From a virus: 43,331 bases of DNA. The notes under the pieces were generated by a model. The model ran no database searches and had not been told where the DNA came from. It saw nothing but the letters and a program-made list of their open reading frames with translations. Below are positions 5,690-29,300 of this stretch, piece by piece. The position numbers and the translations under genes were made by a program. Location: positions 1-43,331 of IMG/VR virus record IMGVR_UViG_3300042545_001211. One strand, written 5' to 3'. Each line of letters opens with the position of its first letter. Within the stretch, counting starts at the first letter, position 1.

Positions 5690-8272
5690 TTATTGTTTAG
5701 CGTATGAATTTGTACTACTTTTAGCAACCACAGCTGATATTTTTGATGTAACTTTTTGTCCATCCATATGAACGGATATTTTACCAGCATTTAAATCCGC
5801 TCTCAATCCTTTTATTTCACTAATTAATTCTGCGGTACTATCCGTCTTTCCTCCACCACCACCTTCTCCACCACCGGTTAAAAATGATAACCCGTTCAAT
5901 GCCATTAAAATAGGAAGTGCAAGTAATCCCCCCATAGCCACCATTGCTAATGCACCCGCCAACATTGTCAATGAACCGGCTAGTCCTAAAATTGGTAAAA
6001 AACTAATTTGAGATAATGCCGCCATTTGTTCAACAATCATTGGTATTGTTGGTGCTAATGCGTTTAATGCACCACCAACCGAATTTAACCCAGCACCGGC
6101 CAATATCATAAATGGTGAAGCGGCTCCCAATACAAGCATAGATGCAGCTACTGCTGCCATTCCGATTCCAAATTGTATATATGGAGCAGCTGCAAACGCA
6201 ACCATACCTGCTGCAAAAATACCCAATGCCGGTCCCAACATATTCATACCAATTGCCACTTGTTGTGAAGCAAGTCCAAATACATAGAATGCAGCCGATG
6301 CTACTAATAATGCCGCGGCTCCAACTAATATCATTGGTCCTGCTAAACTTAATAATGCCGCTACCCCGCCCAATGCGGCCATCGCTGCAATACCAATAAA
6401 TACATTACCCCAATCTATCTTACCACTAAACTCTTGTGCTGCTTTTGCAAATACCCAAAGGGCCGCGGCCATAATTAACATCGCGGCTGCGGCTTGTATT
6501 AATGCCGGTCCATTTATTTTTCCCATTTTATTAGCCTTATCTGGATCTGGTGTCGCTCCTCCTTTTATTTTATCCTGTGCAATACCACCCATTTTATCTT
6601 TTACAGCACTGGTAGCTTTATCTTTTATCGCATCGGTTGCTTTTCCAGATACCGAATCGGTTACTTTCGCTATTGCCTTTCCTTTTATTAAATTTTTAAC
6701 CCATTCAAACGCTTGTTTGGCCATACCACCCATATTAATACCCATATCTTTCAACATAGGACTCATCTGACCCATTGCTATTAAACTACTACCAAATGTT
6801 TTAGCCATACCAGCCAATGGTCCAGTTACAAATGCTGTAGTTCCTTCCCAGAAAGTACTCCATTTGGAAACACTAGCTTCACCATTCTCAGATATCTTAT
6901 CAGAATTTGCTGCCATCTTTTGGAACTCATCAACTGATAATCCCAATAGTTCTGCCGCTTTTCTCTTTTGGAAAATATCCATTTTATTAAATGCATCTAT
7001 ACCACCTAGTTGATTCAATGTTTCTTTTACAGCACCAGTCATATTTCCTTCATATGCCAATCCCCTTGCTCTATCTAAGTTAAGTTGCTTACCCATCATA
7101 GCCCCCAATTCCATCTCATTATTAATAGAGGTTTCGAAGTCTAATAAACTATCACTTACTTTGGCCATTGAATCCATACTAACACCCATCTTAGCAGCTG
7201 CTACTGCGGCAATGGACATGTTTAATCCACCATTCTTACCATATTCTGCAAATGCTTTTGTTGAACCAGCAACATCTTTCATTAAAGAATCAATCGGAAC
7301 ACCAGCGGCTTTACCCAATGCTTTTGTGGTTGCTGCCATATCCATAGCAGTTGAAGCAGACCCATCGTTCATTCTTGCAAAGTTACCAACAACGTTAGCG
7401 GCTTCAGCACCACTAATACCCATATTAGTTGCCATTAAATTGGTATTCAACTGAGTAGTAAATGATACATCTTTTAATCCACCAAATTCTTTAGATAATC
7501 CTTTTGCCGTTTCTTCCGCATCTTTAAATGCGAATCCTAAAGCAAATGTTGATATTTGTGCCGAATCTACATATCCACCAAAACTTCTAACACTCTTACC
7601 CCATTTATCCAAACCAAACCCAACTCCAATAATTGCAGCCCCCAAAGCTCCTTTAAAATTAGATGTTAATAAGCTTGCAGTTTCTAATATACCACCTATC
7701 GTATCCTTTATACCGTCATATACCGCTATTTGCTTTCCTAAAAAATCCTTTTGGGCTTTTGTCATTTTCCCATAATTTCTAGCGAGCGTATTTTGTTCTT
7801 TTAAATTTTCAATAATTTTTTTATCTTCTTCACTCATATTACCCAAGCTGGCTTGGATTTCTTTATATTCTTGATTTAAAGCAGCATGACCGGCTATATC
7901 ATCTATTGTTAATTGAGAAATACTTCTATTAATTTCAGCCATTTTATTCAATGAAGCGGTTTGCTCTATTGTTAAATCTTTTGAAGTAAATGTATTTTTA
8001 ATTCTTTCTTTTTCAAATTTATTTAGATTTTGATATATGCCACTCATACTACCTAGTGAACTTTCCGCACTTTTTAATCCATCTAATCTAGTTTGATTTA
8101 GTTTTCTAACTACTTTAAGTTGCTCAGCTGCCAAATCTCTTTGAGCCTTTATTTGAGCGGTCATATCCACACCAGTTTGTAGTGCTTCCTGTTCAAGGCG
8201 CTTTTGTTCCTGTCTAGCTTTTGCAAAAGCTAATATAGCTTTTTGTTTTTCTTTATCTAAATTTTCCGCCAT
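5690..8272 (-). CDS. Tail tape-measure protein (860 aa)
   Basis: This is the longest gene between the chaperone pair and the baseplate genes, the usual tape-measure position. The N-terminal 130 or so residues are strongly charged and helical (coiled-coil-like). The middle carries Met/Ala/Gly-rich repeats. Residues about 587-797 are a long hydrophobic Ala/Gly/Leu/Met region with several membrane-like helices, followed by a poly-Gly stretch. Hydrophobic central-to-late segments are characteristic of tape-measure proteins, which fill the tube and help DNA entry. With the rule of roughly 1.5 angstrom per residue the tail tube would be near 130 nm, an inference only. No lysozyme or peptidase motif is evident. 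The stop codon is 2 nt from the next start. Confidence 0.85.
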   Translation of the reverse strand: MAENLDKEKQKAILAFAKARQEQKRLEQEALQTGVDMTAQIKAQRDLAAEQLKVVRKLNQTRLDGLKSAESSLGSMSGIYQNLNKFEKERIKNTFTSKDLTIEQTASLNKMAEINRSISQLTIDDIAGHAALNQEYKEIQASLGNMSEEDKKIIENLKEQNTLARNYGKMTKAQKDFLGKQIAVYDGIKDTIGGILETASLLTSNFKGALGAAIIGVGFGLDKWGKSVRSFGGYVDSAQISTFALGFAFKDAEETAKGLSKEFGGLKDVSFTTQLNTNLMATNMGISGAEAANVVGNFARMNDGSASTAMDMAATTKALGKAAGVPIDSLMKDVAGSTKAFAEYGKNGGLNMSIAAVAAAKMGVSMDSMAKVSDSLLDFETSINNEMELGAMMGKQLNLDRARGLAYEGNMTGAVKETLNQLGGIDAFNKMDIFQKRKAAELLGLSVDEFQKMAANSDKISENGEASVSKWSTFWEGTTAFVTGPLAGMAKTFGSSLIAMGQMSPMLKDMGINMGGMAKQAFEWVKNLIKGKAIAKVTDSVSGKATDAIKDKATSAVKDKMGGIAQDKIKGGATPDPDKANKMGKINGPALIQAAAAMLIMAAALWVFAKAAQEFSGKIDWGNVFIGIAAMAALGGVAALLSLAGPMILVGAAALLVASAAFYVFGLASQQVAIGMNMLGPALGIFAAGMVAFAAAPYIQFGIGMAAVAASMLVLGAASPFMILAGAGLNSVGGALNALAPTIPMIVEQMAALSQISFLPILGLAGSLTMLAGALAMVAMGGLLALPILMALNGLSFLTGGGEGGGGGKTDSTAELISEIKGLRADLNAGKISVHMDGQKVTSKISAVVAKSSTNSYAKQ

Positions 8273-8280
8273 TTATGGAA

Positions 8281-8496
8281 TTATTTTGAATACTTTTGTA
8301 TTAATTTATTAAGAGTATCACTTTCTTTTTCAATTCTTTCCATGGCATCGATTACATCGGGTGGGAATTTATTTTGTTTTGCTTGGTCTAATGCTTTATT
8401 TACTGCATTTTGTTTCAATCCATCAAAAAATGCATCAGTAAATTTTTTTGCCGAACTGAATAGACCTTCTTTTATTGGTTGTTTTTCTTTTGACAT
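8281..8496 (-). CDS. Hypothetical 71-aa helical protein before the tape measure
   Basis: This small, highly charged, probably all-helical protein has 13 Lys and no cysteine. It is the first gene after a terminator-like hairpin and an ATATTTATA box (20-28 nt upstream). It stops 8 nt before the tape-measure start, so it probably leads the tape-measure/baseplate operon. Its size and position would suit a small tape-measure partner, but nothing in the sequence shows this. I do not recognise it. Confidence 0.7.
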   Translation of the reverse strand: MSKEKQPIKEGLFSSAKKFTDAFFDGLKQNAVNKALDQAKQNKFPPDVIDAMERIEKESDTLNKLIQKYSK

Positions 8497-8530: not shown

Positions 8531-8562
8531 ATAAAAAAGTGAGGATTAACGCATCCTCACTT
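8531..8562 (-). terminator. Rho-independent terminator overlapping the chaperone-extension stop codon
   Basis: Perfect 10-bp arms (8537-8546 and 8553-8562) flank a 6-nt loop. The minus-strand RNA has a T-run straight after the stem (8538-8531). The last codons and TAA of the 82-aa frame lie inside the hairpin. Confidence 0.8.
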
Positions 8563-8794
8563 TAGATTTACTTTGAGCTTTTTTCATCTCTTCGGCTTCT
8601 TTTTTCTTTAATTCTATTAATTTATTGAAATAAAACCTTCTTAGATATACAGGCATATGGTAAACCTCATACCAATTGAATCCATTACCAAATTGAACCA
8701 TTTCCCAAATTTGAGAATGAAGTTGAGATTTATAATCAGTTGGAAGGGTAAAAAAAGTTAATCCCGAAGGGTATATCCAGCGCCTCCGATTCAC
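8546..8794 (-). CDS. Second frame of the tail assembly chaperone pair (82 codons), probably made by frameshift
   Basis: This frame overlaps the end of the gp26-like gene by 59 nt, in the +1 (equally -2) frame. As a separate gene it would have to start at GTG 8794, two codons after an in-frame TAA and without a ribosome site. Its first 15 residues (NRRRWIYPSG...) look like an out-of-frame reading of the upstream gene. From TLPTDY onward it looks like a real protein: an aromatic segment, PVYLRRFYFNKLIELKKKE, then a Lys-rich tail. The pattern and position (tube, chaperone, overlapping extension, tape measure) match the G/GT-type chaperones of many tailed phages. A shift on the T7 run 8756-8750 would give a fusion of about 332-333 residues. 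Confidence 0.65.
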   Translation of the reverse strand: MNRRRWIYPSGLTFFTLPTDYKSQLHSQIWEMVQFGNGFNWYEVYHMPVYLRRFYFNKLIELKKKEAEEMKKAQSKSKVRMR

Positions 8795-9545
8795 CAGTTA
8801 TTTGTGATGTAAATTGGAATGTCAAATCCATATCAGGACTAATTTCCTTAACATACTTTCTAAACGCTTTAGTATCTTTTGCTAAAAACCCATTAACAAC
8901 CCATCTATTTATAAATCCTCTATCAGTATTACCATCAATCGATTTAATCATATATTTCAATCTAGTTGTCACATCAAATGAAGATTGTGAATTTTTATTT
9001 AACTTTTCTAATGCCTGAGTTTCTTTTGTTATTTCTTGCTCATCACCGTGTGTAAGTAATTTAAATTCAATTTCTTTACCATCTGAAGGTAATGTGAATT
9101 TATATGAATTTGTAGAACTCAATACATCAGTATCAATATCTTTCGTTTGTACTTTACCCAAATCAATAGTTACTTTTTGAGTTTCTAATGTAAATGGGTC
9201 AGTTAATTCCACTTCGTAATCCGCACCATATCCTAAAATACGAGTTGCTAATAAAATAGCATTCTTATCACCAAGGTAAATATCATTCGTATTTACACCA
9301 GGTTCAACTACAACCGATTCAAATAGTTTATCTAATACAATACCTTTTTTAATAAGGTTTTGAGAAGCTAAGATATCTTCTTCTCGTGCTGTCATATATT
9401 TTATCTCACAAGTACCCTTTCTTAAAGGATGTCCTTCAGGATATACTAATCCTTGAGATGGTAATTCAATAACTTCCGTTGGGAAATCAATTTGTTTTGG
9501 TGCTGTTTGCATTTGCACCTTAGATGTATTTGTCATTTCTGCCAT
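8736..9545 (-). CDS. T4 gp26-like protein (T4_baseplate family), probable tail assembly chaperone (269 aa)
   Basis: The protein has the family layout I associate with T4 gp26 homologues: an N-terminal IELPSQGLVYPEGHPL motif (about residues 26-41), then EIKYMTAREEDIL, a KGIVLDKLF segment, a beta domain with YEVELTDPFT, and a late RWVVNGFLAKDTKAFRKY helix. T4 gp26 is listed as a baseplate hub assembly factor. The position between tube and tape measure, and the overlapping second frame, fit the tail assembly chaperone role instead or as well. The frame ends with TGA 12 nt after a T7 run. Upstream lie a terminator-like hairpin and an ATATTTATA-type box. Confidence 0.75.
   Translation of the reverse strand: MAEMTNTSKVQMQTAPKQIDFPTEVIELPSQGLVYPEGHPLRKGTCEIKYMTAREEDILASQNLIKKGIVLDKLFESVVVEPGVNTNDIYLGDKNAILLATRILGYGADYEVELTDPFTLETQKVTIDLGKVQTKDIDTDVLSSTNSYKFTLPSDGKEIEFKLLTHGDEQEITKETQALEKLNKNSQSSFDVTTRLKYMIKSIDGNTDRGFINRWVVNGFLAKDTKAFRKYVKEISPDMDLTFQFTSQITGESEALDIPFGINFFYPSN
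8750..8756 (-). other. Candidate slippery site for programmed frameshift (T7)
   Basis: On the minus strand the upstream frame reads AAC TTT TTT TAC and the downstream frame reads ACT TTT TTT ACC. A run of seven T lets Phe tRNA re-pair after +1 or -2 slippage, joining the two frames. The upstream stop codon is only 12 nt further. No strong downstream structure was noticed. Confidence 0.5.
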
Positions 9546-9604: not shown

Positions 9605-9633
9605 AAAAAAGGGGATACTTTTGATATCCCCTT
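9605..9633 (-). terminator. Rho-independent terminator after the tail tube gene
   Basis: Perfect 9-bp arms (AAGGGGATA at 9609-9617, TATCCCCTT at 9625-9633) flank a 7-nt loop. The minus-strand transcript continues into a T-run. It lies 18 nt past the tube stop codon. A strong terminator here suits the need for many tube copies but few chaperone copies. Confidence 0.85.
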
Positions 9634-9651: not shown

Positions 9652-10140
9652 TTAGAATTCTAAGATTGCGTAATCATAAGATAGTGTTAATTCGATTGTT
9701 GCAACTTCATTTGAATCAAATGATAAATCTCCAAAGTTTGCTTGAGAGATAAATGCACCTTTCAATTTCCATTGTTCAATCTTATCACCAACTGGTCCTA
9801 ATAGATAAAAATCAATATCTTTCTTATAGAAATCAGCGTATCCATCTCTACCAGTGATTGATTCATGTCCTAAACGAATCCACTCCATTACCGCTTGTGC
9901 TCCAGATGGAACGATTGGGTCATAAAGTGTGATAGTGATATCTTGCCACTCACCTTTACCTTTTAACTTTCTCTTTACGTTGATATGGTCTAAAGTTACG
10001 GTTTCAAATTGAATTGTAGGTCTATTTGCTGCCTTTACAAGATATGAAGGGATAGTATCTATCTCCATCACATATCTATTTTTCATTTTGGGTTCGAAGT
10101 TCGTATAGAACATCTTATCAAACTCTAATATTTCTGCCAT
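9652..10140 (-). CDS. Tail tube protein, T4 gp19-like (162 aa)
   Basis: Length matches the T4 gp19 family (about 163 residues). The N-terminal MFYTNFEPKMKNRYVMEID, central VTLDHINVKRKLKG, ITITLYDPI and C-terminal ATIELTLSYDYA are typical of this beta-barrel tube protein. It polymerises into the inner tube, inside the sheath encoded just upstream (52-nt gap). This start has the only clear Shine-Dalgarno-like sequence in the window (AAGGA about 8 nt upstream), in keeping with high expression. A strong terminator follows. Confidence 0.9.
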   Translation of the reverse strand: MAEILEFDKMFYTNFEPKMKNRYVMEIDTIPSYLVKAANRPTIQFETVTLDHINVKRKLKGKGEWQDITITLYDPIVPSGAQAVMEWIRLGHESITGRDGYADFYKKDIDFYLLGPVGDKIEQWKLKGAFISQANFGDLSFDSNEVATIELTLSYDYAILEF

Positions 10141-13112: not shown

Positions 13113-16100
13113 TTATCTATTGTTAGTTAAGATTTTCAACATTTCTTTAATTTCAGAAATATCGTTCTTTTGTTTGTCAATTATAACCTGTTGTTCTTTA
13201 ATAGCTTCTACTAAAAGTGGAACTAATTTATCATAATCGATTGTTAAATAGTTTTCACCACTCTTAGAACCTATCACGTTACCTTCCGAATCAAATTCAG
13301 TATCAAATGGCGCTAATGTTACAATTTCAGGAAGTATTCTTTGAACTTCTTGTGCTGAAAGACCCAATTGTACTTTTTCATCGGTGTATCCTACTGATTT
13401 TGCCAAATCATTGTTCACATAATAGAAACCATTTAATTGAGAAATCTTTTCTATTGGGTTTTCAATCTTGCCAACTTTTGTTTTTAATCTTTCATCAGAA
13501 TAGTAAGCGATGATATTTCCCTGACAGAATACCCATTCGTATGCGTATAATTGGTTTGCATTAATTCTAAACATACGAGAACTACCATCACCATCCATAT
13601 AATATCCCGTATTGTTATTATCATAGAATAACGGACTTCTTATAGAGCCATCCGCTTGGAAATATCCATATTGGAATCTATGATAATCACCACCCCAATA
13701 ATACAACCAACTTCTACTATTATCATGTATACCAATGTTATCACCACCGGTACTCATTAAACAGTGTCTAGAACCAATACCCCAACCTTGCCAGCCATTT
13801 CTACCACCATCGTAAGTTGTATAGTTACCATAAGAATTTCCACCACATTCAGCTGCCCATATACCTCTACCATATGATTGGTTATACAATCCAGTACAAC
13901 CATAGTTTCTCCACCATCCGTAGTTATAACCCTGGTCTATGTATATTGCGCTTAAACGAGAATCACCATTAGGGTCACTATAATATCCAGTATTATTTGC
14001 ATCATACATTATATATGCGTACAATGTATATCCAGGATTAGAACCACTCATTACGAATTCTAACCATCCAGATGTACCACCACCCCATTTACCTCTTGCC
14101 CAATATCTATTTGCGGTTGCATCACCGGCACCTACCATCATCCAACCATACGCCGCACCACCATCCGATGTTGCATAGTGTTGACCGGATACAATACCTT
14201 GAGCGTGAATGTAACCACCACCTTGAGGGTGACCAGTTCCACCACCCCAAATATCCCATCCAGAAAAACCAGCTTTCCAAGCATTATCCCAGTTTCCAGC
14301 AGATGTTCCCCAACCGAAAGTACCTGTCCAATAGTTAGTATCACCAGTATAATCAAATCTAGGGGTATTCCAATGATAACCCCTATTTATCGCGGCATGT
14401 GTTCTTTGTGCAAATCTACTTAATTGTGAAGTACCATTAGGGTCTAAATAGTATGAAGTATCATCTCTATCGTAAATAAAGTTTGTTCTTATCTCATAAA
14501 GATACGTTCTATTTCCAGAATAGTGGTTGATATAAGTTTCATATCCGTTTTGGCAATCTAAGTGTAAGTTACCATTAGTTGTCACAACAGATGCGTATGA
14601 GTTAGGTCTACCATTAGAACCAACATAAAGATATGCTCCCCAAGTTGGGTTAGGTCCATGTAGAGTACCGCCTCTAATTCTTAAAGCAGAATCCGATGTT
14701 GAGTTAGGGTCTAAATAATATCCAGTATCGTTACTATCGGCATAATACCCTGCATATAAAGGTCCACCACTACCATCATTACGGTCATGCATTGCAACAG
14801 TACACCAACCGCTCCAACCACTCCAAGCACTTCTAAATCTTAAGTTACTTATCGGTCCACCAACCAACTGCCAACCAGTGTTATTATTTCCACCAGCCGC
14901 ATAATGGAAAGCTTGTGTACCAACCCAATGCGATGTACCACTCGGCTGATTACCTGGGTTTGACCAAGAATCAATAAAGCCTGAACCCCATCCCGCTACT
15001 GAGTTCATATCAGTAGTTCCCCATCCCATAGAACCTATCCAATAATTAGTATCTCCAGTATAATCATTTCTACGGTAGTTACCTTTACCGGTCAATCCAA
15101 TTCTCATTTTACCATAATCGGTCAAACCTTGCCAGTTACTATCACCATTACCATTGAAATAGTATCCAGTATCGTGGTCATAGTAAATAGGTGACCTCAT
15201 ATCACTTCTTGCCCAAACTGTGCTTGTAAGTGCTGCGTATGTTAAACCATTAACCATTACTAACAATCCGTGGTCAGTCAAATAACCAGCTTGTCCGCCG
15301 GCATTAGGATGTGACCAAGATAATCCATATAAGTTACCAGGAGATGTACCATCAACAGGAAGTCTCCAAGAAGTACCCATTGAGAATATACCCTGATATC
15401 TAGTTGATGTATAAACTCCAAAAATAGTTTGTCCGTAGTTATAATCCAAATAAATGTGTTCGTTTGAATCAACTCTAATACCACCGTTTGATAATACATA
15501 ACTTAATCTAGCAGTACCAGCTGGGTCTACATAATATCCAGTATTGTTTGAATCATAAAATATTGGTGCTCTTAATGAGTTACCACCAGTTGCATAGTTA
15601 TTAAAATATACCGTATTATTTGGGTACATTTCCATATTAGTAACTCTAGTACCGGATGTATTCGTGTTATAGAAATACCAATCACCAGCTGAAGTAAACC
15701 TCATATATGCTTGTCCCTGCCCCGTATTTATTCTATCAAATCCACCAGGACCACTACCATTATTATGTACGTTAAATCCAAAACCACCATCATTCCAAGT
15801 CACACCAGGTTCAGATACCCACATTTGTAAATAAGATGGTACACCAGTACCCATTTCATTTCCTCTAGCAATAATTCTAAGAGATGAATCGTAGTGGCCA
15901 CCAGCTACTTCTAATCTACCTCTTAAATAAGATGTACCATTAGGGTCTATATAATATGCAGTATTTTGGGCATCATACATTATATTAGCTTGGAAACTTT
16001 GTGCCCAAGCAGTACTACCATTATCCCATCTTAAGTTCCAACCAACAATAGAGTTACCACCACCATAACCCAATCTCCAGTCATTTGCAGATACGTTACT

Positions 16101-19100
16101 AATCATACCCCAATAGGTAGATGCGTTATTCATCATAAATGAACCATTGTTATTATATGCGTTATGTTGAATAGAGTTTCCGTTTGCAACAACTAAATAA
16201 ACAAGGTTTGTTGTACCAGCTGCATTCACATAATATCCAGTATTATCCGAATCGTAGTATATTGGTGAATATAATGCCGCGGTTGAATATATAGCTCCAG
16301 TGGTGTAAATACCACCATTCATTTGTAATCTAGTATAGGTACTACCATTGTTTCTTAATGCAATAACATGCGGGTCACCAGGTAAGAATGTACTACTAGC
16401 ATATTCATATCCTAATCCGTACATATTACCAATTGGCCAAGACTCACCGATTGTCCAAATTACTTTAGAAGCAGTTCCGGTTGAATTATAACTACCCATC
16501 ATACCACCTTCGTTACGGCTTACTAAATAGTTATCATAATAATGTCTACCATAATTGTATGATACGTTCATTACAGTAGTACCATTTCCATCAAAATAAT
16601 AACCAGTATTATCTTGGTCATAGAATATAGGTGCTCTAAATGAAGATATTGCATATCCAATTCCATCGATACTCCACCCACCAACGGTTTGTCCATATGT
16701 TGTATTATAAAAATGGAAACCAGTAATACCAACTAATTGAGATGTTGTTCTTAAACCAACATACCATTGTGCATATGTATTTCTATAATTCCACATTGCT
16801 TCAAGAGCTCCATCAGAATAAATTTGTGGATATTGATGTACTCCAGATGAATATATTTGTATAGAGTCACCTGGACTACCTCCCGATGGACGTACTTGTA
16901 ATCTTCTAAGAACAGACGTATTATCACCATCTATTCTAAATGTAGTATCATCACTATCATAGTAGATTGGAGAATACATTGCCGAAGTAGCCTGAATTGT
17001 TGTACTTCTAAATCCACTTAAATTGCTAGATATATATGAGTAGGAATCTGATTCTATTGCTGCAGTATATCCTTCCGCAACATCCATTACTCCACTATAA
17101 TATGAACCATTTTGTATTTTACGAAGAACAACCTGTCCATAAGACCAACCAGATGAACCGTTACCAATTACGATACAATATTTACCATCTTTAACACCAA
17201 CTCTAATTGGTTTATCGGTATATCCTACAAGAGTTGCTCCGAAATTATACCAAGCACCATTCCAGTTATGTCCACCAACTATTACAGTACATGCATTATT
17301 TCCGTTATATTCATAAATGTCAATAACCGCATGTATCATTCCATAGTTACTAGTATTACCAGGAAATTTAATAACAACTGCTCCAGTTGTACTACTGCTG
17401 GCTCCCCAAACTGCGTAAGGTCTACCTACTAAGTTATTTTGTTTTATACCACCTGCTATTCTTAATGAAGTTGCACTTGTACCAGGATCTAAAAAATATC
17501 CAGTATCAGTATAATCTCTGAATAGTGTTCCTCTAACTTCTTCCGATGCTACTATACGAGATGAAATCGATGCTCTAAAAGAACCATTGTTTATTATTAA
17601 CAAACCATGGTCATTCAAATTATTCGCACCACCCAAACCACCTGCATTTGGATGAGACCATGCGATGCCATACATATTATTAGTTGCCAATCCATTTACC
17701 GCCATTTTATAAGAGTCACCCATAGCAAATACGGCTTGCAATCTAACGGAATCATAATTTCCAACTATACCTTTTCCAAAATCATCAAATACAATATTTC
17801 TTCCATAAGTAATTCTCGCAGCATCTCTTGTATCATGATAGTGAATTAAAGAATCGGTGCCGGCATATCTACTATATCGATATACATTATACGCACTATC
17901 CCAATACCATCTATCACCATACCAACCACTACTATCTTCACCAAAACGGAATTCAGCATCTCCACTATCACTTGCACCGACATATAGAGTATCATTAACC
18001 CAAGTTAAATCACCACTACTATTACCCAAATAACTATTGTAGAAAGTTCTAAAGTGGTTATCACCATCGTTGAAACTTGCAACAGCAACACTATTTGCTA
18101 TATTATAAAATTGAGTACCACCGTATGAATGATGAGAACGAAGTCTTATACCAGTATAAAAATGTATATGTAATGGTTGTGTCCAAGCACCTGCCGGCTT
18201 ACCAATATAATAGTTAAAATCACTAGTTGTATGAAAATCTATACCTCTAAATGATGTAGTTGATATTGATTCATTATTATTTGTATAACCAATATTAACG
18301 TAGTTACCAGTATTAAGATTATCTACATTTATTGTACTTGCCTTTGAAGTTCCAGCTGGATTTATATAAAAAGTCGTATCATTTCTATCGTATAGAGAAT
18401 CCGCATCTATTCTACCCATCGTATGATTGGCAAATGTAGATGGAGTACCCGCGTTCCAAATATATGAAGTTGGAGTTCCACCTAAAGCCGCGCGATAATT
18501 AATATACATAGAACTTGCAGTGCCCCCAAGCGTTATTTCATTACCCGCAGATGTTATACTAAAATATCCTCCATTTGTATCTATATAATTCGATGCACCA
18601 TCAATTTCTACTTTACCAAATCTTACAGTATCAGTTGTACGAACATTTTGGTCCATCGCATATAGTTCGTTAGCACCTTGTCCGGTATTTACGGTTGCAA
18701 ATGTTACACCATCCGTAGTTCTTACGTTTTGGTCCATTGCATATAATTCGTTAGCACCTTGTCCGGTATTAACCGTAGCAAAAGTTACTGCATCCGTTGT
18801 TCTGATATTTTGGTTCATTAAATAAACTTCAGTTGCACCTAATCCAGTATCTATTGTACCACTAAGAACTACGTTACCACTTACGTTTACGTTATCATCA
18901 AATGACCATCTATCATTTCCCTCATCCCAAATAAATTGTTTTGTTGCTGCATTACCTCTCTTAACTTCTATACCAGCATTTTCAGTTGGTGTAGTTGATG
19001 CTCCAATATCTGCGTTAAGTGTAATGATATTATCACCTACATTTAAAGTTGTTGTATTAATATATGTTGTAGTACCACTAACAGTTAAGTTACCACTAAT

Positions 19101-21299
19101 TGTAGCATCTCCAGTTACCGTCAATGTACTACCATCGAATTTTAAATTTGCTTCAACAGTTCCGTTTGGTGCAGTTCCGTTTAATGTAATTACACCATTA
19201 TCAGTTGTACCAGTTAATGCTAATAAACCAGAAGTACCTGATGTACCGCGTGTTCCAGATGTTCCAGATGAACCACTTGTACCAGAAGTTCCAGAAGTTC
19301 CACTTGTACCGGAAGTTCCTGCCGAACCACTTGTACCAGAAGTTCCCGATGAACCGGAAGCTCCTGATGAACCAGAAGTTCCTGATGTTCCGCTTGTTCC
19401 TGATGTACCAGAAGTTCCTGATGTACCAGAAGACCCACTTGTTCCAGCTGAACCTGATGTACCAGAAGTTCCACTACTTCCCGCCGAACCACTTTCTCCA
19501 GATGTTCCGCTACTTCCTGATGTACCAGATGTTCCTGAAGTTCCTGAAGTTCCTGATGTACCAGAAGTTCCGCTACTTCCTGCCGAACCACTTACTCCGG
19601 ATGTTCCAGATGAACCACTTTCTCCGGATGTTCCAGATGAACCACTACTTCCAGCTGAACCACTTACTCCAGATGTTCCTGAAGTACCACTACTTCCACC
19701 GGTACCACTTACTCCAGATGTTCCTGAAGTACCGGCCGAGCCAGATGAACCTTGTATTCCATCCGAACCACTTGTTCCAGAAGTTCCAGAAGTTCCAGAA
19801 GTACCTGAAGTACCTGAAGTACCTGCCGAACCAGATGAACCTTGTATTCCACTTGCACCAGATGTACCAGCTGAACCTGATGTACCAGCTGAACCCGAAG
19901 TTCCTGATGTACCCGAAGTTCCTGATGTACCAGCTGAACCACCGGTTCCACCTGCACCGGTTACTCCCGAAGTTCCTGATGTACCACTAGAACCACTACT
20001 TCCACTACTACCATCCGCTCCACTCGTTCCACTTGTTCCACCACTACCATTCGTACCACCCAATCCACCGGCTCCAGTTATACCACCACTACCAGCAGTA
20101 CCACTTGTTCCAGAAGTTCCAGAAGTTCCAGATGTACCTGCCGAACCAGTTGTACCGGCTGTTCCACTTATACCAGAAGACCCGGTTGAGCCGGCAGTAC
20201 CAGTTGTACCACCACTTCCCGAAGTTCCACTAGTACCACTTGTCCCAGCTGAACCAGATGTTCCTGATGAACCATCTTCTCCACTTGTTCCAGAAGTTCC
20301 TGATGTTCCAGAAGTTCCAGATGTACCAGCCGAGCCCGTTGTACCTGCAGAACCTGTACTACCTGAAGTTCCGGATGTTCCGGATGTTCCGCTTGTGCCA
20401 GAAGTACCCGATGTGCCATCGATTCCAGATGTTCCCGATGTACCAGACGTTCCGGATGTACCTGATGTGCCAGACGTTCCAGAAGTACCGGCAGAACCCG
20501 TACTACCAGAAGTTCCGCTTGTTCCTGAAGTTCCCGAAGTTCCTGATGAACCACTACTACCGGAAGTTCCTGATGTACCAGAAGTACCAGAAGTACCTTC
20601 ACTACCAGTTGTACCAGAAGTTCCTGATGTACCAGACGTACCAGAAGTTGCTGCTGCAAATTTAGTTCCTATCTTTCCCGTTGCGGTATTAATAACCAAT
20701 ACTTCGTTTGTTACATTATCAGCTTGGAGGCCGGTAACAAACATAGAACCTGAAATTGCTACACTACCAGTAAATTCTTGTTTATCGAGTTGAGAATCGC
20801 CAAATTTATTTGAACCAGATGAATATATTACAGATGATGAAATGTATGTTGTATGTATTTCAGTAGATGTTATTTTACCAGCTACACTAATATCTCCTTT
20901 GAAAATACCACTTCCAGTTACTATTAAAAAATCATTTACAGTAACGCCAGTATTAACTCTTAATCCTTGATTTGGTGAAATTTGTGCTACTACTGAACCT
21001 GATTTTAATCTATCTATATCGCCAATTGATGCCGCACTAATATTAAATAACCCACTACCATCTCCTCTAAATAAAGATGCGGTAATAGAACCACTAACTT
21101 GTGTATTTGCGTTTATTTGTAATGAAGACCCACTAGTTACTCCAATTAAATTTGTTTGTATTCCGGAAGCACTAAAGTTTCCTACAACATTTACAGATTC
21201 CGATGATGCATTTAATATAGATGCTCCACTCACAAAAAGTGATACACTATTTACACTAGTCTGATTTAACCCATTAGGACTTTTTCCGTTAAACTCCAT
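13113..21299 (-). CDS. Giant tail fibre with collagen-like region and C-terminal S74 self-cleaving chaperone (2728 aa)
   Basis: Residues 1-215 are short beta modules (SGSITASLFRGDGSGLFNI) also found in the 3464-aa fibre. Residues about 217-692 are collagen-like Gly-X-Y repeats, mostly GTSG. A linker follows with three near-identical copies of a GANELYAMDQNVRTTD-type repeat. The rest (about 930-2590) holds some 12 copies of a YDxxNTGYYxDPxGT motif separating variable domains, including SHPNAGG modules and two Trp/Gly-rich modules. The C-terminus is a chaperone of endosialidase (peptidase S74) domain with SDERLK at 2601-2606 and a final coiled coil. In that family the Ser/Lys pair cleaves just before the Ser after trimer folding. 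The likely role is a receptor-binding trimeric fibre. Confidence 0.9.
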   Translation of the reverse strand: MEFNGKSPNGLNQTSVNSVSLFVSGASILNASSESVNVVGNFSASGIQTNLIGVTSGSSLQINANTQVSGSITASLFRGDGSGLFNISAASIGDIDRLKSGSVVAQISPNQGLRVNTGVTVNDFLIVTGSGIFKGDISVAGKITSTEIHTTYISSSVIYSSGSNKFGDSQLDKQEFTGSVAISGSMFVTGLQADNVTNEVLVINTATGKIGTKFAAATSGTSGTSGTSGTTGSEGTSGTSGTSGTSGSSGSSGTSGTSGTSGTSGSTGSAGTSGTSGTSGTSGTSGTSGTSGIDGTSGTSGTSGTSGTSGTSGSTGSAGTTGSAGTSGTSGTSGTSGTSGEDGSSGTSGSAGTSGTSGTSGSGGTTGTAGSTGSSGISGTAGTTGSAGTSGTSGTSGTSGTAGSGGITGAGGLGGTNGSGGTSGTSGADGSSGSSGSSGTSGTSGVTGAGGTGGSAGTSGTSGTSGTSGSAGTSGSAGTSGASGIQGSSGSAGTSGTSGTSGTSGTSGTSGSDGIQGSSGSAGTSGTSGVSGTGGSSGTSGTSGVSGSAGSSGSSGTSGESGSSGTSGVSGSAGSSGTSGTSGTSGTSGTSGTSGSSGTSGESGSAGSSGTSGTSGSAGTSGSSGTSGTSGTSGTSGTSGTSGSSGASGSSGTSGTSGSAGTSGTSGTSGTSGTSGSSGTSGTRGTSGTSGLLALTGTTDNGVITLNGTAPNGTVEANLKFDGSTLTVTGDATISGNLTVSGTTTYINTTTLNVGDNIITLNADIGASTTPTENAGIEVKRGNAATKQFIWDEGNDRWSFDDNVNVSGNVVLSGTIDTGLGATEVYLMNQNIRTTDAVTFATVNTGQGANELYAMDQNVRTTDGVTFATVNTGQGANELYAMDQNVRTTDTVRFGKVEIDGASNYIDTNGGYFSITSAGNEITLGGTASSMYINYRAALGGTPTSYIWNAGTPSTFANHTMGRIDADSLYDRNDTTFYINPAGTSKASTINVDNLNTGNYVNIGYTNNNESISTTSFRGIDFHTTSDFNYYIGKPAGAWTQPLHIHFYTGIRLRSHHSYGGTQFYNIANSVAVASFNDGDNHFRTFYNSYLGNSSGDLTWVNDTLYVGASDSGDAEFRFGEDSSGWYGDRWYWDSAYNVYRYSRYAGTDSLIHYHDTRDAARITYGRNIVFDDFGKGIVGNYDSVRLQAVFAMGDSYKMAVNGLATNNMYGIAWSHPNAGGLGGANNLNDHGLLIINNGSFRASISSRIVASEEVRGTLFRDYTDTGYFLDPGTSATSLRIAGGIKQNNLVGRPYAVWGASSSTTGAVVIKFPGNTSNYGMIHAVIDIYEYNGNNACTVIVGGHNWNGAWYNFGATLVGYTDKPIRVGVKDGKYCIVIGNGSSGWSYGQVVLRKIQNGSYYSGVMDVAEGYTAAIESDSYSYISSNLSGFRSTTIQATSAMYSPIYYDSDDTTFRIDGDNTSVLRRLQVRPSGGSPGDSIQIYSSGVHQYPQIYSDGALEAMWNYRNTYAQWYVGLRTTSQLVGITGFHFYNTTYGQTVGGWSIDGIGYAISSFRAPIFYDQDNTGYYFDGNGTTVMNVSYNYGRHYYDNYLVSRNEGGMMGSYNSTGTASKVIWTIGESWPIGNMYGLGYEYASSTFLPGDPHVIALRNNGSTYTRLQMNGGIYTTGAIYSTAALYSPIYYDSDNTGYYVNAAGTTNLVYLVVANGNSIQHNAYNNNGSFMMNNASTYWGMISNVSANDWRLGYGGGNSIVGWNLRWDNGSTAWAQSFQANIMYDAQNTAYYIDPNGTSYLRGRLEVAGGHYDSSLRIIARGNEMGTGVPSYLQMWVSEPGVTWNDGGFGFNVHNNGSGPGGFDRINTGQGQAYMRFTSAGDWYFYNTNTSGTRVTNMEMYPNNTVYFNNYATGGNSLRAPIFYDSNNTGYYVDPAGTARLSYVLSNGGIRVDSNEHIYLDYNYGQTIFGVYTSTRYQGIFSMGTSWRLPVDGTSPGNLYGLSWSHPNAGGQAGYLTDHGLLVMVNGLTYAALTSTVWARSDMRSPIYYDHDTGYYFNGNGDSNWQGLTDYGKMRIGLTGKGNYRRNDYTGDTNYWIGSMGWGTTDMNSVAGWGSGFIDSWSNPGNQPSGTSHWVGTQAFHYAAGGNNNTGWQLVGGPISNLRFRSAWSGWSGWCTVAMHDRNDGSGGPLYAGYYADSNDTGYYLDPNSTSDSALRIRGGTLHGPNPTWGAYLYVGSNGRPNSYASVVTTNGNLHLDCQNGYETYINHYSGNRTYLYEIRTNFIYDRDDTSYYLDPNGTSQLSRFAQRTHAAINRGYHWNTPRFDYTGDTNYWTGTFGWGTSAGNWDNAWKAGFSGWDIWGGGTGHPQGGGYIHAQGIVSGQHYATSDGGAAYGWMMVGAGDATANRYWARGKWGGGTSGWLEFVMSGSNPGYTLYAYIMYDANNTGYYSDPNGDSRLSAIYIDQGYNYGWWRNYGCTGLYNQSYGRGIWAAECGGNSYGNYTTYDGGRNGWQGWGIGSRHCLMSTGGDNIGIHDNSRSWLYYWGGDYHRFQYGYFQADGSIRSPLFYDNNNTGYYMDGDGSSRMFRINANQLYAYEWVFCQGNIIAYYSDERLKTKVGKIENPIEKISQLNGFYYVNNDLAKSVGYTDEKVQLGLSAQEVQRILPEIVTLAPFDTEFDSEGNVIGSKSGENYLTIDYDKLVPLLVEAIKEQQVIIDKQKNDISEIKEMLKILTNNR
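13116..13499 (-). other. S74/intramolecular chaperone domain with self-cleavage site
   Basis: Residues 2601-2728. Ser2601 and Lys2606 in SDERLK fit the catalytic dyad known from endosialidase N (Ser911/Lys916). Conserved features follow: LNGFYYV, VQLGLSAQEVQRILPEIV, LTIDYDKLVPLLVEAIKEQQ. Predicted cleavage before Ser2601 would release a 128-residue chaperone. Confidence 0.85.
14040..15100 (-). repeat. Two paralogous Trp/Gly-rich modules in the S74 fibre
   Basis: About residues 2070-2185 and 2310-2420. Both open with a DYTGDTNYW motif and GWGT, pass through HxQGxxxxH-like segments, GW(Q/M)(L/M)VG and an RxxWxGxxSGW-type core, and end before a YDxxNTGYY repeat. They look like duplicated carbohydrate- or receptor-binding domains, by composition only. 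Confidence 0.6.
19225..20652 (-). repeat. Collagen-like Gly-X-Y repeat region of the S74 fibre
   Basis: About 475 residues, overwhelmingly GTSG, GSSG, GSAG and GESG triplets with Gly every third residue. The DNA is a degenerate 9-bp repeat. Such regions form triple-helical rods in phage fibres and are prone to length change by slippage or recombination. Confidence 0.9.
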
Positions 21300-23344: not shown

Positions 23345-26300
23345 TTAACTTAAATTTTTACCGGTTACAAATCCGTAATACGAACCACCACCATTATAAG
23401 TATAGAATACTAAAACATCTACACCGGATGATGTTAATATAGGAGCAATTCCGCCTACCCAATCAATTTCAGCTGGCCATGTTATAGAATATGAGCCCGC
23501 ATTTACAACCACTAAAGTAAACCCAAATGCGTTTGATACTGGTGGATTTGAAAATGCAATCGTAGATGTACCATTAAATTGTCTTCTAAAGTTATTTGCA
23601 GTTGATAGGTCAAATGTTATGCTTCCTCCAGTTCCTTGGTCTGAATATGTTTCTCTAAATGTTGTAGAACTTATATAGGTAGAAGATACTATATTTCCCG
23701 TTACAGATAAATTAGTACCATCAAACGTTAAATTAGATTCTACTTGAGAACCAACTGGACTATCTATATAAGTAAGTACTCCATTATTAGTTGTTCCCGT
23801 AACTGGGAATCCGTTAGTACCCGATGTTCCCGATGTTACACCAGGAACAGATGTACCACTCGTTCCTCCGCTTCCACCGGTTCCGTTAATTCCAGAAGTT
23901 CCTGATGTACCAGATGAAAATCCCGGAGCGTTTGTTCCGGAAGTTCCTGCCGAACCACTTGCACCACTTGTACCGCTTGTGCCAGATGAAAATCCTGGTG
24001 CGTTTGTTCCAGATGTACCAGCTGCACCATTACTACCACTACTACCACTTACCCCAGAAGTTCCCGAAGTTCCGGATGAAAATCCCGGAGCGTTTGTTCC
24101 AGAAGTTCCCGAAGAACCATCTGCGCCAGCTGTACCCGTAGCACCATTTGAACCCGATGTACCACTACTTCCAAACATTGTACCATTAACACCAGATGTT
24201 CCAGAAGTTCCAGAAGTTCCTGATGTACCATTAACTCCATTTGTTCCATTTTCTCCAGATGTTCCCGATGTACCACTCTCTCCACTCGTACCACTACTTC
24301 CAAACATTGTACCATTAACACCAGATGTTCCAGATGTACCGGATGTGCCACTGCTACCATTTTCACCAGAAGTTCCCGATGTACCGGATGTACCAGAAGT
24401 TCCACTACTACCAAACATTGTACCATTAACACCAGATGTTCCAGAAGTACCCGATGTACCAGATGAGCCACTAACTCCCGATGTACCAGAAGTACCAGAA
24501 GTTCCTGATGTTCCGCTACTACCAAAGAATGTTCCGTCAAATCCTGAAGTTCCTGATGTGCCAGATGTTCCAGATGAACCACTGGCCCCCGATGTTCCGG
24601 ATGTTCCGTCCGTTCCAATTAAACCACTCGTTCCACTACTACCAAAGAATGTTCCGTCTAACCCAGAAGTTCCACTAGTACCAGATGTACCTTCTATTCC
24701 AGATGTTCCAGAAGTTCCATTAGTTCCACTTTCACCACTAGTACCACTACTGCCAAAGAATGTTCCATCAACTCCAGATGTTCCAGAGGTACCAGAAGTT
24801 CCAGAAGTTCCAGATGAACCGGCACCACTCGTACCACTACTTCCATCCGCACCACTTGTCCCACTTGTTCCAAAAAACGTTCCATCTGCACCTGAAGTTC
24901 CGGATGTACCACTCGTTCCATCAGTACCAACTCCAGAAGTTCCACTTGTGCCGCTTTCACCAGATGTACCACTTGTACCACTACTTCCAAACATTGTACC
25001 ATCAACTCCAGATGTTCCAGAAGTTCCTGATGTTCCAGATGTACCAGATGTACCATCACTACCAGATGTTCCTGAAGTTCCATCAGTTCCATTTATTCCT
25101 GATGTACCACTACTACCAAAGAATGTACCATCTATTCCCGATGTACCACTTGTACCCGATGTACCATCAATTCCAGATGTACCACTCGTGCCATCCGTGC
25201 CACTTATTCCACTAGTTCCACTACTACCAAAATATGTTCCGTCTATACCAGAAGTTCCCGATGTTCCCGATGTTCCGCCGCTTCCACTCGTACCAGAAGT
25301 ACCAGAAGTTCCATCACTACCAGAAGTTCCACTACTACCATTTGTTCCTGAAGTTCCTGATGAGCCATCTATACCACTCGTACCAGAAGTTCCTTCCGAG
25401 CCATTAGTACCCGATGTTCCGCTTGTCCCATCAGTTCCAGAAGTACCAGATGTACCATTTGTTCCAGAAGTACCCGAAGTACCATTTATACCAGAAGTAC
25501 CCGAAGTTCCCTCAGACCCATTTGTTCCTGAAGTTCCACTTGTACCAGAAGTTCCTGATGTTCCATCACTACCAGATGTTCCAGATGAGCCATCTATTCC
25601 AGAAGTTCCAGAAGTTCCACTCGTTCCATCAGTACCAACTCCAGAAGTTCCAGAAGTTCCTGATGTTCCATCACTACCAGAAGTTCCCGATGTTCCATCA
25701 CTACCAGAAGTTCCTGATGTTCCACTTGTACCAGCAGAGCCAGTTGTACCAGAAGTTCCCGATGTTCCGGAAGTGCCATCACTTCCTGATGTTCCAGATG
25801 TTCCACTCGTTCCATCCGAACCAGTTGTTCCTGAAGTTCCTGATGTACCATCACTACCCGTTGTACCAGAAGTTCCTGATGTTCCAGAACTTCCTGCCGA
25901 ACCGGATGTACCAGAAGTTCCTGATGTACCATCACTACCGGTTGTACCAGAAGTTCCTGACGTTCCAGATGTTCCAGATGTTCCTGATGAACCTTCACTA
26001 CCAGAAGTTCCCGATGTACCACTACTACCAGAAGTTCCACTAGAACCGGCAGAACCAGTTGTTCCTGACGTTCCAGATGAACCGGCTGAACCAGATGTTC
26101 CAGAAGTACCCGAAGTACCCGATGAACCCGATATACCATCACTACCGGAAGTTCCAGCAGTTCCCGAAGTTCCTGAAGTACCACTACTTCCATTTTCACC
26201 GGAAGTACCAGAAGTACCAGAAGTTCCCGATGTACCATCCGTACCGGCTCCACCACTTGTTCCAGATGTTCCCGATGTACCAGATGTTCCTGATGTTCCC

Positions 26301-29300
26301 GAAGTTCCGGCACTACCTGCAGTACCAGTTGAACCACTAGTACCACTTGTACCAGAACTTCCACCCGTACCAGATGTTCCTGATGTTCCTGATGTTCCTG
26401 ATGTTCCTGATGTTCCACTAGAACCTTCACTACCAGAAGTTCCGGATGTACCGGATGTACCAGAAGTTCCTGATGACCCGGATGAACCAGTGCTACCAGA
26501 AGTTCCCGAAGTTCCAGCAGTACCAGAAGTTCCAGAAGTTCCCGATGTACCACTTGTTCCTGACGTTCCAGATGACCCACTTGTACCACTAGTGCCCGAA
26601 GTTCCAGAAGAACCTTCACTTCCACTTGTTCCAGAAGTACCAGAAGTTCCCGAAGTTCCAGCCGAAGCTTCAGTTCCAGAAGTTCCAGAAGTTCCTGATG
26701 TACCATCACTACCCGTTGTGCCACTTGTACCTGATGTTCCTGATGTTCCTTCAGAACCGGTTGTACCAGATGTTCCCGATGTACCAGAAGTTCCCGAAGT
26801 TCCTGATGTACCTGCCGAACCTTCCGTTCCAGAAGTTCCAGAAGAACCTTCACTTCCACTTGTTCCAGATGTACCAGAAGTACCAGCCGAACCTTCGGTT
26901 CCAGATGTTCCAGATGTTCCAGAAGTACCCGCAGAACCTTCGGTTCCAGATGTACCGGCCGAGCCATCTAATCCAGATGAACCTTGTACGCCTGCTATAT
27001 TTCTTGTTTCTAATTTCTTCGTTGAACTATTCCAAACTACCACATTCTCCGATGAACCAGAAACTAATGTTCCTATTAATACACTACCACTAACTCCTAA
27101 ACTACCACTAATAGTTAAATTAGCGTTTATATTACTATCTTTATTTACTTGTAAAAATGATGCTGTATTTACCCCTTCCGCATTTAAAGCGTATAGAGCG
27201 TATGATGCAGTGAATGCTAACGATGCAGTTTGTGCAAATAACACACTCATTGAAGAAGTTTGCGAACTAAGTAAATCACCAGCACCAGCACCACCACCAC
27301 CTCCTAATATGGTTACCAATACCCCATCCGAACCAGACGATATCACATTAACACCAGAGCCAGTAAAATGAATTTTTCCTACTTGTGCTTTTACCAATGA
27401 ACTGGTTTGGTATATAAATAATTCAGTACCACCACCTTGTCCTGCATTTAATGCGTATGATGCCGTTAATGCGTAAGAAGAACTTACCGCCCTAAATACA
27501 GACATCGAAGCTGTTTGAGAATTTCTTACAAAATTTTCTAAATCACCCAAAGCTGCTAACGATGCGGAATTAAATCCAACAATACTTTCAGCTACACCCG
27601 CTCTAACTGCATATGAAGCCGATAACACATTACCAATTACTCTATCACCAGGTATCGTACCATTTACCAACGAACCACCGCTACCAATTACAGCATGCCC
27701 ACTTGTCAATCCACTAAATGTAATCTTTATAGTATTTTCATCAATCGATTCAACGGTGGATGGTATAATTTGTGCTTCCGAACCAGTAGCGTAAACTTGC
27801 ACCATTGGATAAAGTATTTCCAAATTGTGTACAATAGTTATTTCACTTGCATTATTAAATGAAACGGTTTCAGTTAATGACGTTTCAGGTTGAGGGATAA
27901 AATATCCTCTATTTTCATCATATCTTAAAATATCATATTCTACAGATGCAGTAGGTCCTAGTCCTTGGAAGTTATAAGTTCCTAAAAATGAACCACTAAT
28001 TAATGGAGAGAAAATATAACTACTACCAGTTATACTATTTGCTCTTAAATTTCTATCAACATACGAATCTCCCCAAACAAATGAAGATGTATTAACTACA
28101 AATCCATTATTAGGTGAAATAGATGCAGTTGCAGAACCACTCTTTAATAAGAATGTTTCAAATGATAAGTTAGCTATATTAATGTTTGTCAAACCACTAC
28201 CATCACCATAATAAGTTGAACCGGATGATAATAATACATTTCCACCGGTTACAAATAATCCACCACTAACACTTAAATTACCAGAAACAAACGTTCTAGT
28301 TCCAATTTCGAATCCTTTGTTTGGAGATATTACCGCTTGAACTGAACCTGATATAATTCTATCCAATTTAAGGTCTTGTAATGCATTAGCAGGGATGTTA
28401 AATAATCCCCCACCATCACCTATATAAAGTGCCGCTGTTATTGGTACGTTTACACTTAATTTAGTAGGGTCAATTATAGCAGTACCAGAACCGGAATTGA
28501 TTTTTTCTAATTCTAAGTTTTCAATCGCATCCGGGGGGATGTTAAATAATCCACCGCCATCTCCATAATAAAGAGATGCGGTTATTGAACCACTAATAGC
28601 TACCGATGATGTGAATTGAGATTGATATGAACCAGAAGATACTGCAGTTATTACTTGGAATATTTCACCACTTGTTACAGATGCAGTTGCTGAACCACTT
28701 GCGATTAACGGAGCTGCTGATGCTTGTACATTTGTAATAAATCTACCATCTCCAAATAAGAATGTACTTGCTTTAATTGAACCACTAACTTCGATTGAAC
28801 CGGTAAATTCAGAACCTATTAATGAGCCGGTTTCATTCGTTTTTACTATAAATCTACGTCCACTTGATACCGATGCAGTTGCCGAACCACTTGCTATAAA
28901 TGGGGCTGCTTGTGCAAATACATTTGTAATATATCTACCATCACCAAATATATAATCTTTTACAACAACTGAGCCACTAACTTCTATTGAACCGGTAAAT
29001 TCGGACCCAATTTGTTCACCAAGTTTTGTAGTTACTACTTGGAATATTTCACCACTTGTTACAGATGCAGTTGCAGAACCACTAGCTATTAAAGGTGCCG
29101 CTGCTGCTTGTACGTTGGTAATAAATCTACCATCACCATAAATGTATTCGGTTGCTCTAATACTACCGCTAACTTCAACCGAACCAGTGAATCTAGAACC
29201 AACTTCTGAGCCAGTGAATGGTGTAATTACATTGAACCCATAATCAGGTGATACCGAAGCGGTTACCGAACCGGATTTAATTTCAGTTGATATTAATGCG

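Follow-up and report, generated by a model that had tools for sequence, protein, structure and literature searches.

A candidate +1 frameshift site that would extend a gp26-like tail assembly chaperone in a tailed-phage genome and its relatives

Gene content of the chaperone region

The window (the whole stretch of DNA analyzed, 43,331 nucleotides) is a 43-kb virus record, taken as it stands without a larger assembly. Its minus strand carries a gp26-like open reading frame (ORF) of 269 amino acids (aa) at 8736–9545, and the 82-aa ORF at 8546–8794 overlaps it by 59 nt, the length given in the original prediction. The region contains the following features.

5690..8272, minus strand: tape-measure-like protein, 860 aa, downstream neighbor; assigned by position and length
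8281..8496, minus strand: 71-aa ORF between the T-domain and the tape measure gene; kept in relatives, with an equivalent ORF in locus L082
8536..8563, minus strand: terminator-like hairpin of 11 pairs ending in a run of Ts; it overlaps the long-frame stop; similar hairpins in 25 of 64 relatives
8546..8749, minus strand: +1-frame extension (T-domain), 67 codons (TLPTDY...KVRMR) plus stop; conserved in all relatives
8736..9545, minus strand: putative short tail assembly chaperone (TAC-N, gp26-like), 269 aa, 30.3 kDa, TGA at 8736–8738; PF12322, phrog_150 and AlphaFold2 (AF2) model
8748..8756, minus strand: candidate shift site TTT TTT TAC, with the T7 run at 8750–8756; codon constraint, and UUU_Y in +1 relatives
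8757..8759, minus strand: AAC (Asn) codon preceding the run; its last base is T in every −1 relative and in no +1 relative
8792..8794, minus strand: GTG, the sole start codon that precedes the run in the second frame; not regarded as a start
9652..10140, minus strand: tail tube protein, gp19 family, upstream neighbor of the gp26-like gene; PF06841, E 6e-11

The gp26-like protein matches PF12322 (E 1.6e-5; 25.1 bits, with a cut-off of 24.5) and phrog_150 (E 7.9e-11, residues 12–265), in agreement with the earlier assignment of the upstream partner of the overlap to the T4 gp26 family. The two overlapping frames had also been placed between the tube and tape measure genes, and this is where they lie: a gp19-type tube gene is found on one side and the 860-aa tape-measure-like ORF on the other, with the 71-aa ORF intervening. 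Neither the 860-aa nor the 71-aa ORF has a family match; the gene at the position equivalent to the former in Flavobacterium phage immuto is annotated as a tail tape measure protein.

The candidate shift site

The homopolymer appears on the plus strand as seven As. Read on the minus strand, the last codons of the gp26-like gene are ...ATT AAC TTT TTT TAC CCT TCC AAC TGA, relative to which the second frame is in the +1 (equivalently, −2) register. The window's ORFs, with 14,033 codons in all, contain a single in-frame TTT TTT T, at this site; because of this single occurrence, and because the arrangement recurs in every relative that was read, the T7 site exceeds what chance would provide. The base preceding the run is C, and the window therefore has no T_TTT_TTT. 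It thus does not carry a canonical X_XXY_YYZ site for −1 frameshifting, its extension being in the +1 frame, and instead has UUU_Y (UUU_UAC) at the position where the frames would be joined. UUU_Ynn has been noted as +1-prone in bacteria (PMC5009743).

Frame relation among related loci

We collected 250 non-identical related loci and called the frame of their T-domains by profile. The T-domain is at +1 relative to gp26 in 168 loci, at −1 in 81 and in frame 0 in none, with one locus uncallable; these counts do not represent independent events, because the loci are related. The overlap, whose conservation had been named as a check on the original prediction, thus keeps its out-of-frame relation in all 249 callable loci, and the arrangement of two overlapping frames that could give a short and a long product, as expected of a chaperone pair, is conserved with it. 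Close relatives (71–100 per cent identity) all retain the +1 frame and CTTTTTTTACCCT or a near-CTTTTTTTACCCT sequence.

The base before the two Phe codons (Phe-Phe) separates the two groups completely: it is C in 83, A in 44, G in 41 and T in none of the +1 loci, and T in 81 of 81 −1 loci. The −1 relatives, of which LR756511 with T_TTT_TTC is an example, have a canonical −1 site; 74 of the 81 carry TTT TTC after the T, RAS14 has T_TTT_TTT, and six have A_AAT_TTC. The latter six (L156, L293, L294, L295, L298 and L299) form a clade inside the +1 group in which A_AAT_TTC replaces the T run and the extension is at −1, an apparent switch of frameshift direction. In one further contig, binned with Winogradskyella (L279), the last codons of the gp26-like gene read C TTT TTT TTC, so that a T_TTT_TTC heptamer lies inside eight Ts while the domain is at +1; this may be a natural two-way site.

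Among the +1 relatives, the site reads TTT TTT TGG in Microcystis phage Mel-JY01 and in RM378, TTT TTT CAC in SP-15, TTT TTT AGT in LIS04, TTT CTT TGG in immuto, TTT CTA TTC in megaphage LR756508 and TTC TTT CGT in Streptococcus phage GXN1. Loss of the run in homologs would have counted against the original prediction. The slippery Phe-Phe site persists, but the homopolymer itself is not universal, for the +1 relation is also found in relatives with UUC_UUU_CGU, UUC_UUU_UAC, UUU_CUU_UGG and UUU_CUA.

These homopolymer-free relatives bear on three other explanations of the frame relation. Slippage of the transcribing polymerase, which would make some mRNAs one base shorter or two bases longer, is suggested by a homopolymer of seven at the site. 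We consider it very improbable, however, since the +1 relation is kept where the longest T run is three to four bases (L085, L115, L158, L159, L083 and L084), and slippage does not account for the way in which the base before Phe-Phe predicts the direction. A sequencing or assembly error that split one long gene is likewise the kind of fault to which a homopolymer at the junction might point, but it is scarcely credible: the same relation is present in the cultured phages SP-15, immuto, GXN1, LIS04, RM378 and Mel-JY01 and in 168 non-identical +1 loci, several of which have no homopolymer, and in no relative is there a continuous single frame. The third is a −2 frameshift, in which the P-site tRNA-Phe would move back two bases within T7 and add one Phe to the product (NFFF-TLPTDY). 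Mu-like phages use −2 frameshifting, which supplies a precedent, and exact re-pairing two bases back is possible on the T7 run of the window and in most relatives. In the relatives with TTC TTT CGT, TTC TTT TAC, TTT CTT TGG or TTT CTA, which share the same frame relation, such re-pairing would be mismatched, and we regard −2 frameshifting as unlikely.

Codon-level constraint and the start of the second frame

Constraint at the codon level was examined in 68 non-redundant relatives with less than 85 per cent identity. Both Phe codons are almost invariably TTT (67 of 68 and 64 of 68 relatives). Through aa 262, the share of identical synonymous codons is close to its expectation (ratio of about 1), and over aa 263–268 the ratio is 1.64, 1.47, 1.48, 1.39, 2.29 and 3.01, with aa 268 being the top synonymous-constraint column of 256. 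A T before the run, which would create U_UUU_UUU, a −1 heptamer, is expected in 34 of the 68 relatives and observed in none.

The pattern of differences changes across the overlap. Downstream of the gp26 stop, 5204, 3267 and 12148 differences fall at positions 1, 2 and 3 of the +1 codons, so that third positions predominate, whereas in the interval 60–21 nt 5′ of the gp26 stop 3661 of 4760 differences are at position 3 of frame 0. Between the GTG and the run, too, the differences are at frame-0 third positions, and the +1 frame is unconstrained. Because constraint on the +1 frame is confined to the 3′ side of the run and the frame-0 pattern to its 5′ side, the second frame appears to be read from the run onward and not before it. 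The earlier description of protein-like sequence beginning after the T run is refined in one respect: the putative shift codons are inside the run, so that reading in the second frame already begins there and not merely past the run's end.

Could the second frame nevertheless be a separate gene, translated from the GTG at 8794, from an internal ATG or by re-initiation? The window does have that GTG and an ATG 37 nt past the gp26-like stop, and in Mel-JY01 the T-domain frame is annotated as a separate hypothetical gene. Yet we find, as was first noted, no credible start: the GTG is two codons past a stop, has no Shine-Dalgarno-like sequence before it and is missing in many relatives, and the ATG is not conserved and lies downstream of conserved residues. 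Between the last +1 stop and 24 nt beyond the gp26 stop, 71 of the 168 +1 loci have no ATG, GTG or TTG, and 147 have no ATG. In L060 and L069, a +1 stop immediately precedes the run and no start follows it. In none of the relatives is the second frame a free-standing, well-started gene, since even the separate annotation in Mel-JY01 starts inside the overlap. Together with the unconstrained +1 frame 5′ of the run, these observations make a separate gene highly improbable.

Proposed mechanism

A programmed frameshift extending the gp26-like protein, as originally proposed, is thus strongly supported by the 250 relatives, the codon constraint and the lack of starts. The shift had been predicted to be +1 or −2 rather than −1; the register in the window agrees, and we favor +1 over −2 because several relatives lack the bases for the P-site tRNA to re-pair two bases back. 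The +1 relation in homopolymer-free relatives argues against both −2 shifting and transcriptional slippage, and +1 re-pairing of tRNA-Phe on UUU_Y would explain all +1 loci, including those that mismatch at −2 or have no homopolymer. On this comparative evidence, it is very probable that +1 programmed ribosomal frameshifting yields two forms of a tail assembly chaperone, the short one of 269 aa and the long one of 332 aa (38.2 kDa).

In the mechanism that we infer, most ribosomes would terminate at TGA 8736–8738 and release the short chaperone. A fraction would slip by +1 while UUU (8753–8751) occupies the P site and UAC the A site; tRNA-Phe would re-pair perfectly on UUU 8752–8750, and ACC would be the next codon, followed by CTT CCA and so on. 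The product would be the long chaperone, with the junction ...NFF-TLPTDY.... If the pair works as lambda G/GT does, the tape measure protein would be coated by the short form, and the long form, the rarer of the two, would use its extension to bring in tail tube subunits.

A search for stimulators of the shift gave little. Downstream of the site, the RNA folds just slightly more stably than shuffled sequences do (mean z of −0.79, compared to −0.36 for the control). Neither UAC nor UGG is an obvious hungry codon, which counts against +1. GGAGG, 26 nt 5′ of the run, was considered as a Shine-Dalgarno-like stimulator and rejected, being too distant and accounted for by conserved Glu-Ala codons.

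A tree of 50 diverse rows requires no fewer than three changes of direction, of which its starred branches force only one. With somewhat less confidence than in the frameshift itself, we think it probable that the Phe-Phe site has switched between −1 and +1 several times, with the preceding base (T or not T) setting the direction, and that the +1 form, which has no obvious need of a stimulator, occurs widely among phages of Bacteroidota, Cyanobacteriota, Bacillota and Rhodothermota.

Chaperone identity and predicted structure

Assignment of the gp26-like protein as a tail assembly chaperone is based on its gp26/gp51 homology, synteny and fold matches. Separate models were made of the short form and of the gp51 family. 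The AF2 model of the short form, predicted with confidence (pLDDT 87), has viral fold matches to gp26-type baseplate hub proteins (e.g. SP-15, E 5.9e-19). In re-alignment with VIA-align, the best two of 991 PDB chains were YqbN 3KLU (Z 5.6, 84 aligned, 3.6 Å) and the HK97 TAC 2OB9 (Z 5.0, 96 aligned, 4.2 Å), both named as tail assembly chaperones (PMC9603447); with Z below 8, and Z of 5–6 possible by chance, these modest resemblances fit the assignment without proving it. A Foldseek search of the PDB with the gp51 model returned no match at E ≤ 0.001.

T4 gp26 and gp51 both match PF12322 along its length, with gp51 having about 50 additional C-terminal residues. Compared directly by profile, the T-domain and the C-terminus of T4 gp51 show a weak similarity, reached by 4 of 200 shuffles. 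The link between them comes from two intermediate steps: the small ORF of cyanophage P-SSM2 matches phrog_634 (5.7e-28) as well as phrog_150 over its C-terminal part (3.5e-7), by which the cyanophage −1 extensions are firmly linked to the gp51 C-terminus, and the −1 T-domains of the L156 clade are plainly homologous to the +1 T-domains.

Comparison with known systems

T4 gp26 and gp51 have been listed as hub assembly chaperones (PMC3004832), and one GenBank record names both as tape measure protein assembly chaperones. T4 has a homologous short protein, and its gp51 corresponds to a long form (full-length PF12322 with the C-terminal addition), but the two forms are the products of two genes, whereas the window would make both from one gene and a +1 shift. 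In T4 gene 26, Phe-Phe is kept as GAG TTC TTT GAG, which is not slippery. Phages P-SSM2, S-SM2, KVP40, Atu_ph07, PA5oct and RAS14 share the Phe-Phe position, the two-form arrangement and a related extension, but have a T before Phe-Phe and the extension at −1 after T_TTT_TTC (T_TTT_TTT in RAS14). Several small ORFs have been given gene annotations of their own (gp51 in P-SSM2, KVP40.0327 and others: L194 3708–3881, L193 3822–3989, L189 3696–3869 and L192 3804–3971); each is probably an extension of gp26, reached by a −1 frameshift after T_TTT_TTC/T.

Outside the family, lambda G/GT is likewise a short/long chaperone pair between the tail tube and tape measure genes, but lambda shifts by −1 (PMC5009743), and we draw the likeness without claiming sequence similarity. 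The G-T equivalent of archaeal myovirus HSTV-2 very likely uses +1 in a tail chaperone gene, by the description in the same review. Shifts of +1 on UUU are known from Yersinia YopN-TyeA, the symbiosis ICE and influenza PA-X (UCC_UUU_CGU, which UUC_UUU_CGU of GXN1 resembles), in other genes with other functions (PMC5009743).

That review describes tail-chaperone frameshifts as conserved among long-tailed phages, "except T4" (PMC5009743). The PRFect paper cites Vladimirov et al. 2022 for some T4-like phages with separate short and long chaperone genes (PMC10885494), and the Adele paper cites the same work for poly-T −1 signals (PMC12846349). As represented in these citations, the chaperone identity of gp26/gp51 is already published and the −1 form is probably known as well; the proposal that gp26-like proteins belong to the tail-chaperone class is thus correct but not new, having been made for T4-like phages by Vladimirov et al. 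2022. Our literature search, which covered that study through the papers citing it rather than through its own text, found no description of a +1 site in the gp26 family, of the spread of the +1 form among phages whose hosts belong to at least four phyla or of a direction flip at one site.

If our reading is correct, the T4 family holds three solutions, namely duplication, a −1 shift and a +1 shift at one site. The gp26 family would then offer a natural series for how a slippery site sets frameshift direction, and a well-replicated bacterial-type +1 site without a stop codon in the A site. It would also mean that the long chaperone is absent from the current annotations of SP-15, immuto, GXN1, LIS04 and RM378; immuto, GXN1, SP-15 and LIS04 have no annotated gene in the T-domain frame beside gp26.

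Flanking hairpins and other features of the window

A second terminator-like hairpin with a T tail is located at 9609–9633. Because the hairpins flank the chaperone gene on both sides, with the downstream one overlapping the long-frame stop, the gene may be its own transcription unit between the tube and tape measure genes.

Elsewhere, the window encodes two giant collagen-repeat proteins, one of which (13113–21299; 2728 aa) carries an S74 chaperone domain at its C-terminus and the other (23345–33739; 3464 aa) ten collagen stretches, and the collagen repeats account for long antisense ORFs such as that at 23979–27371 on the plus strand.
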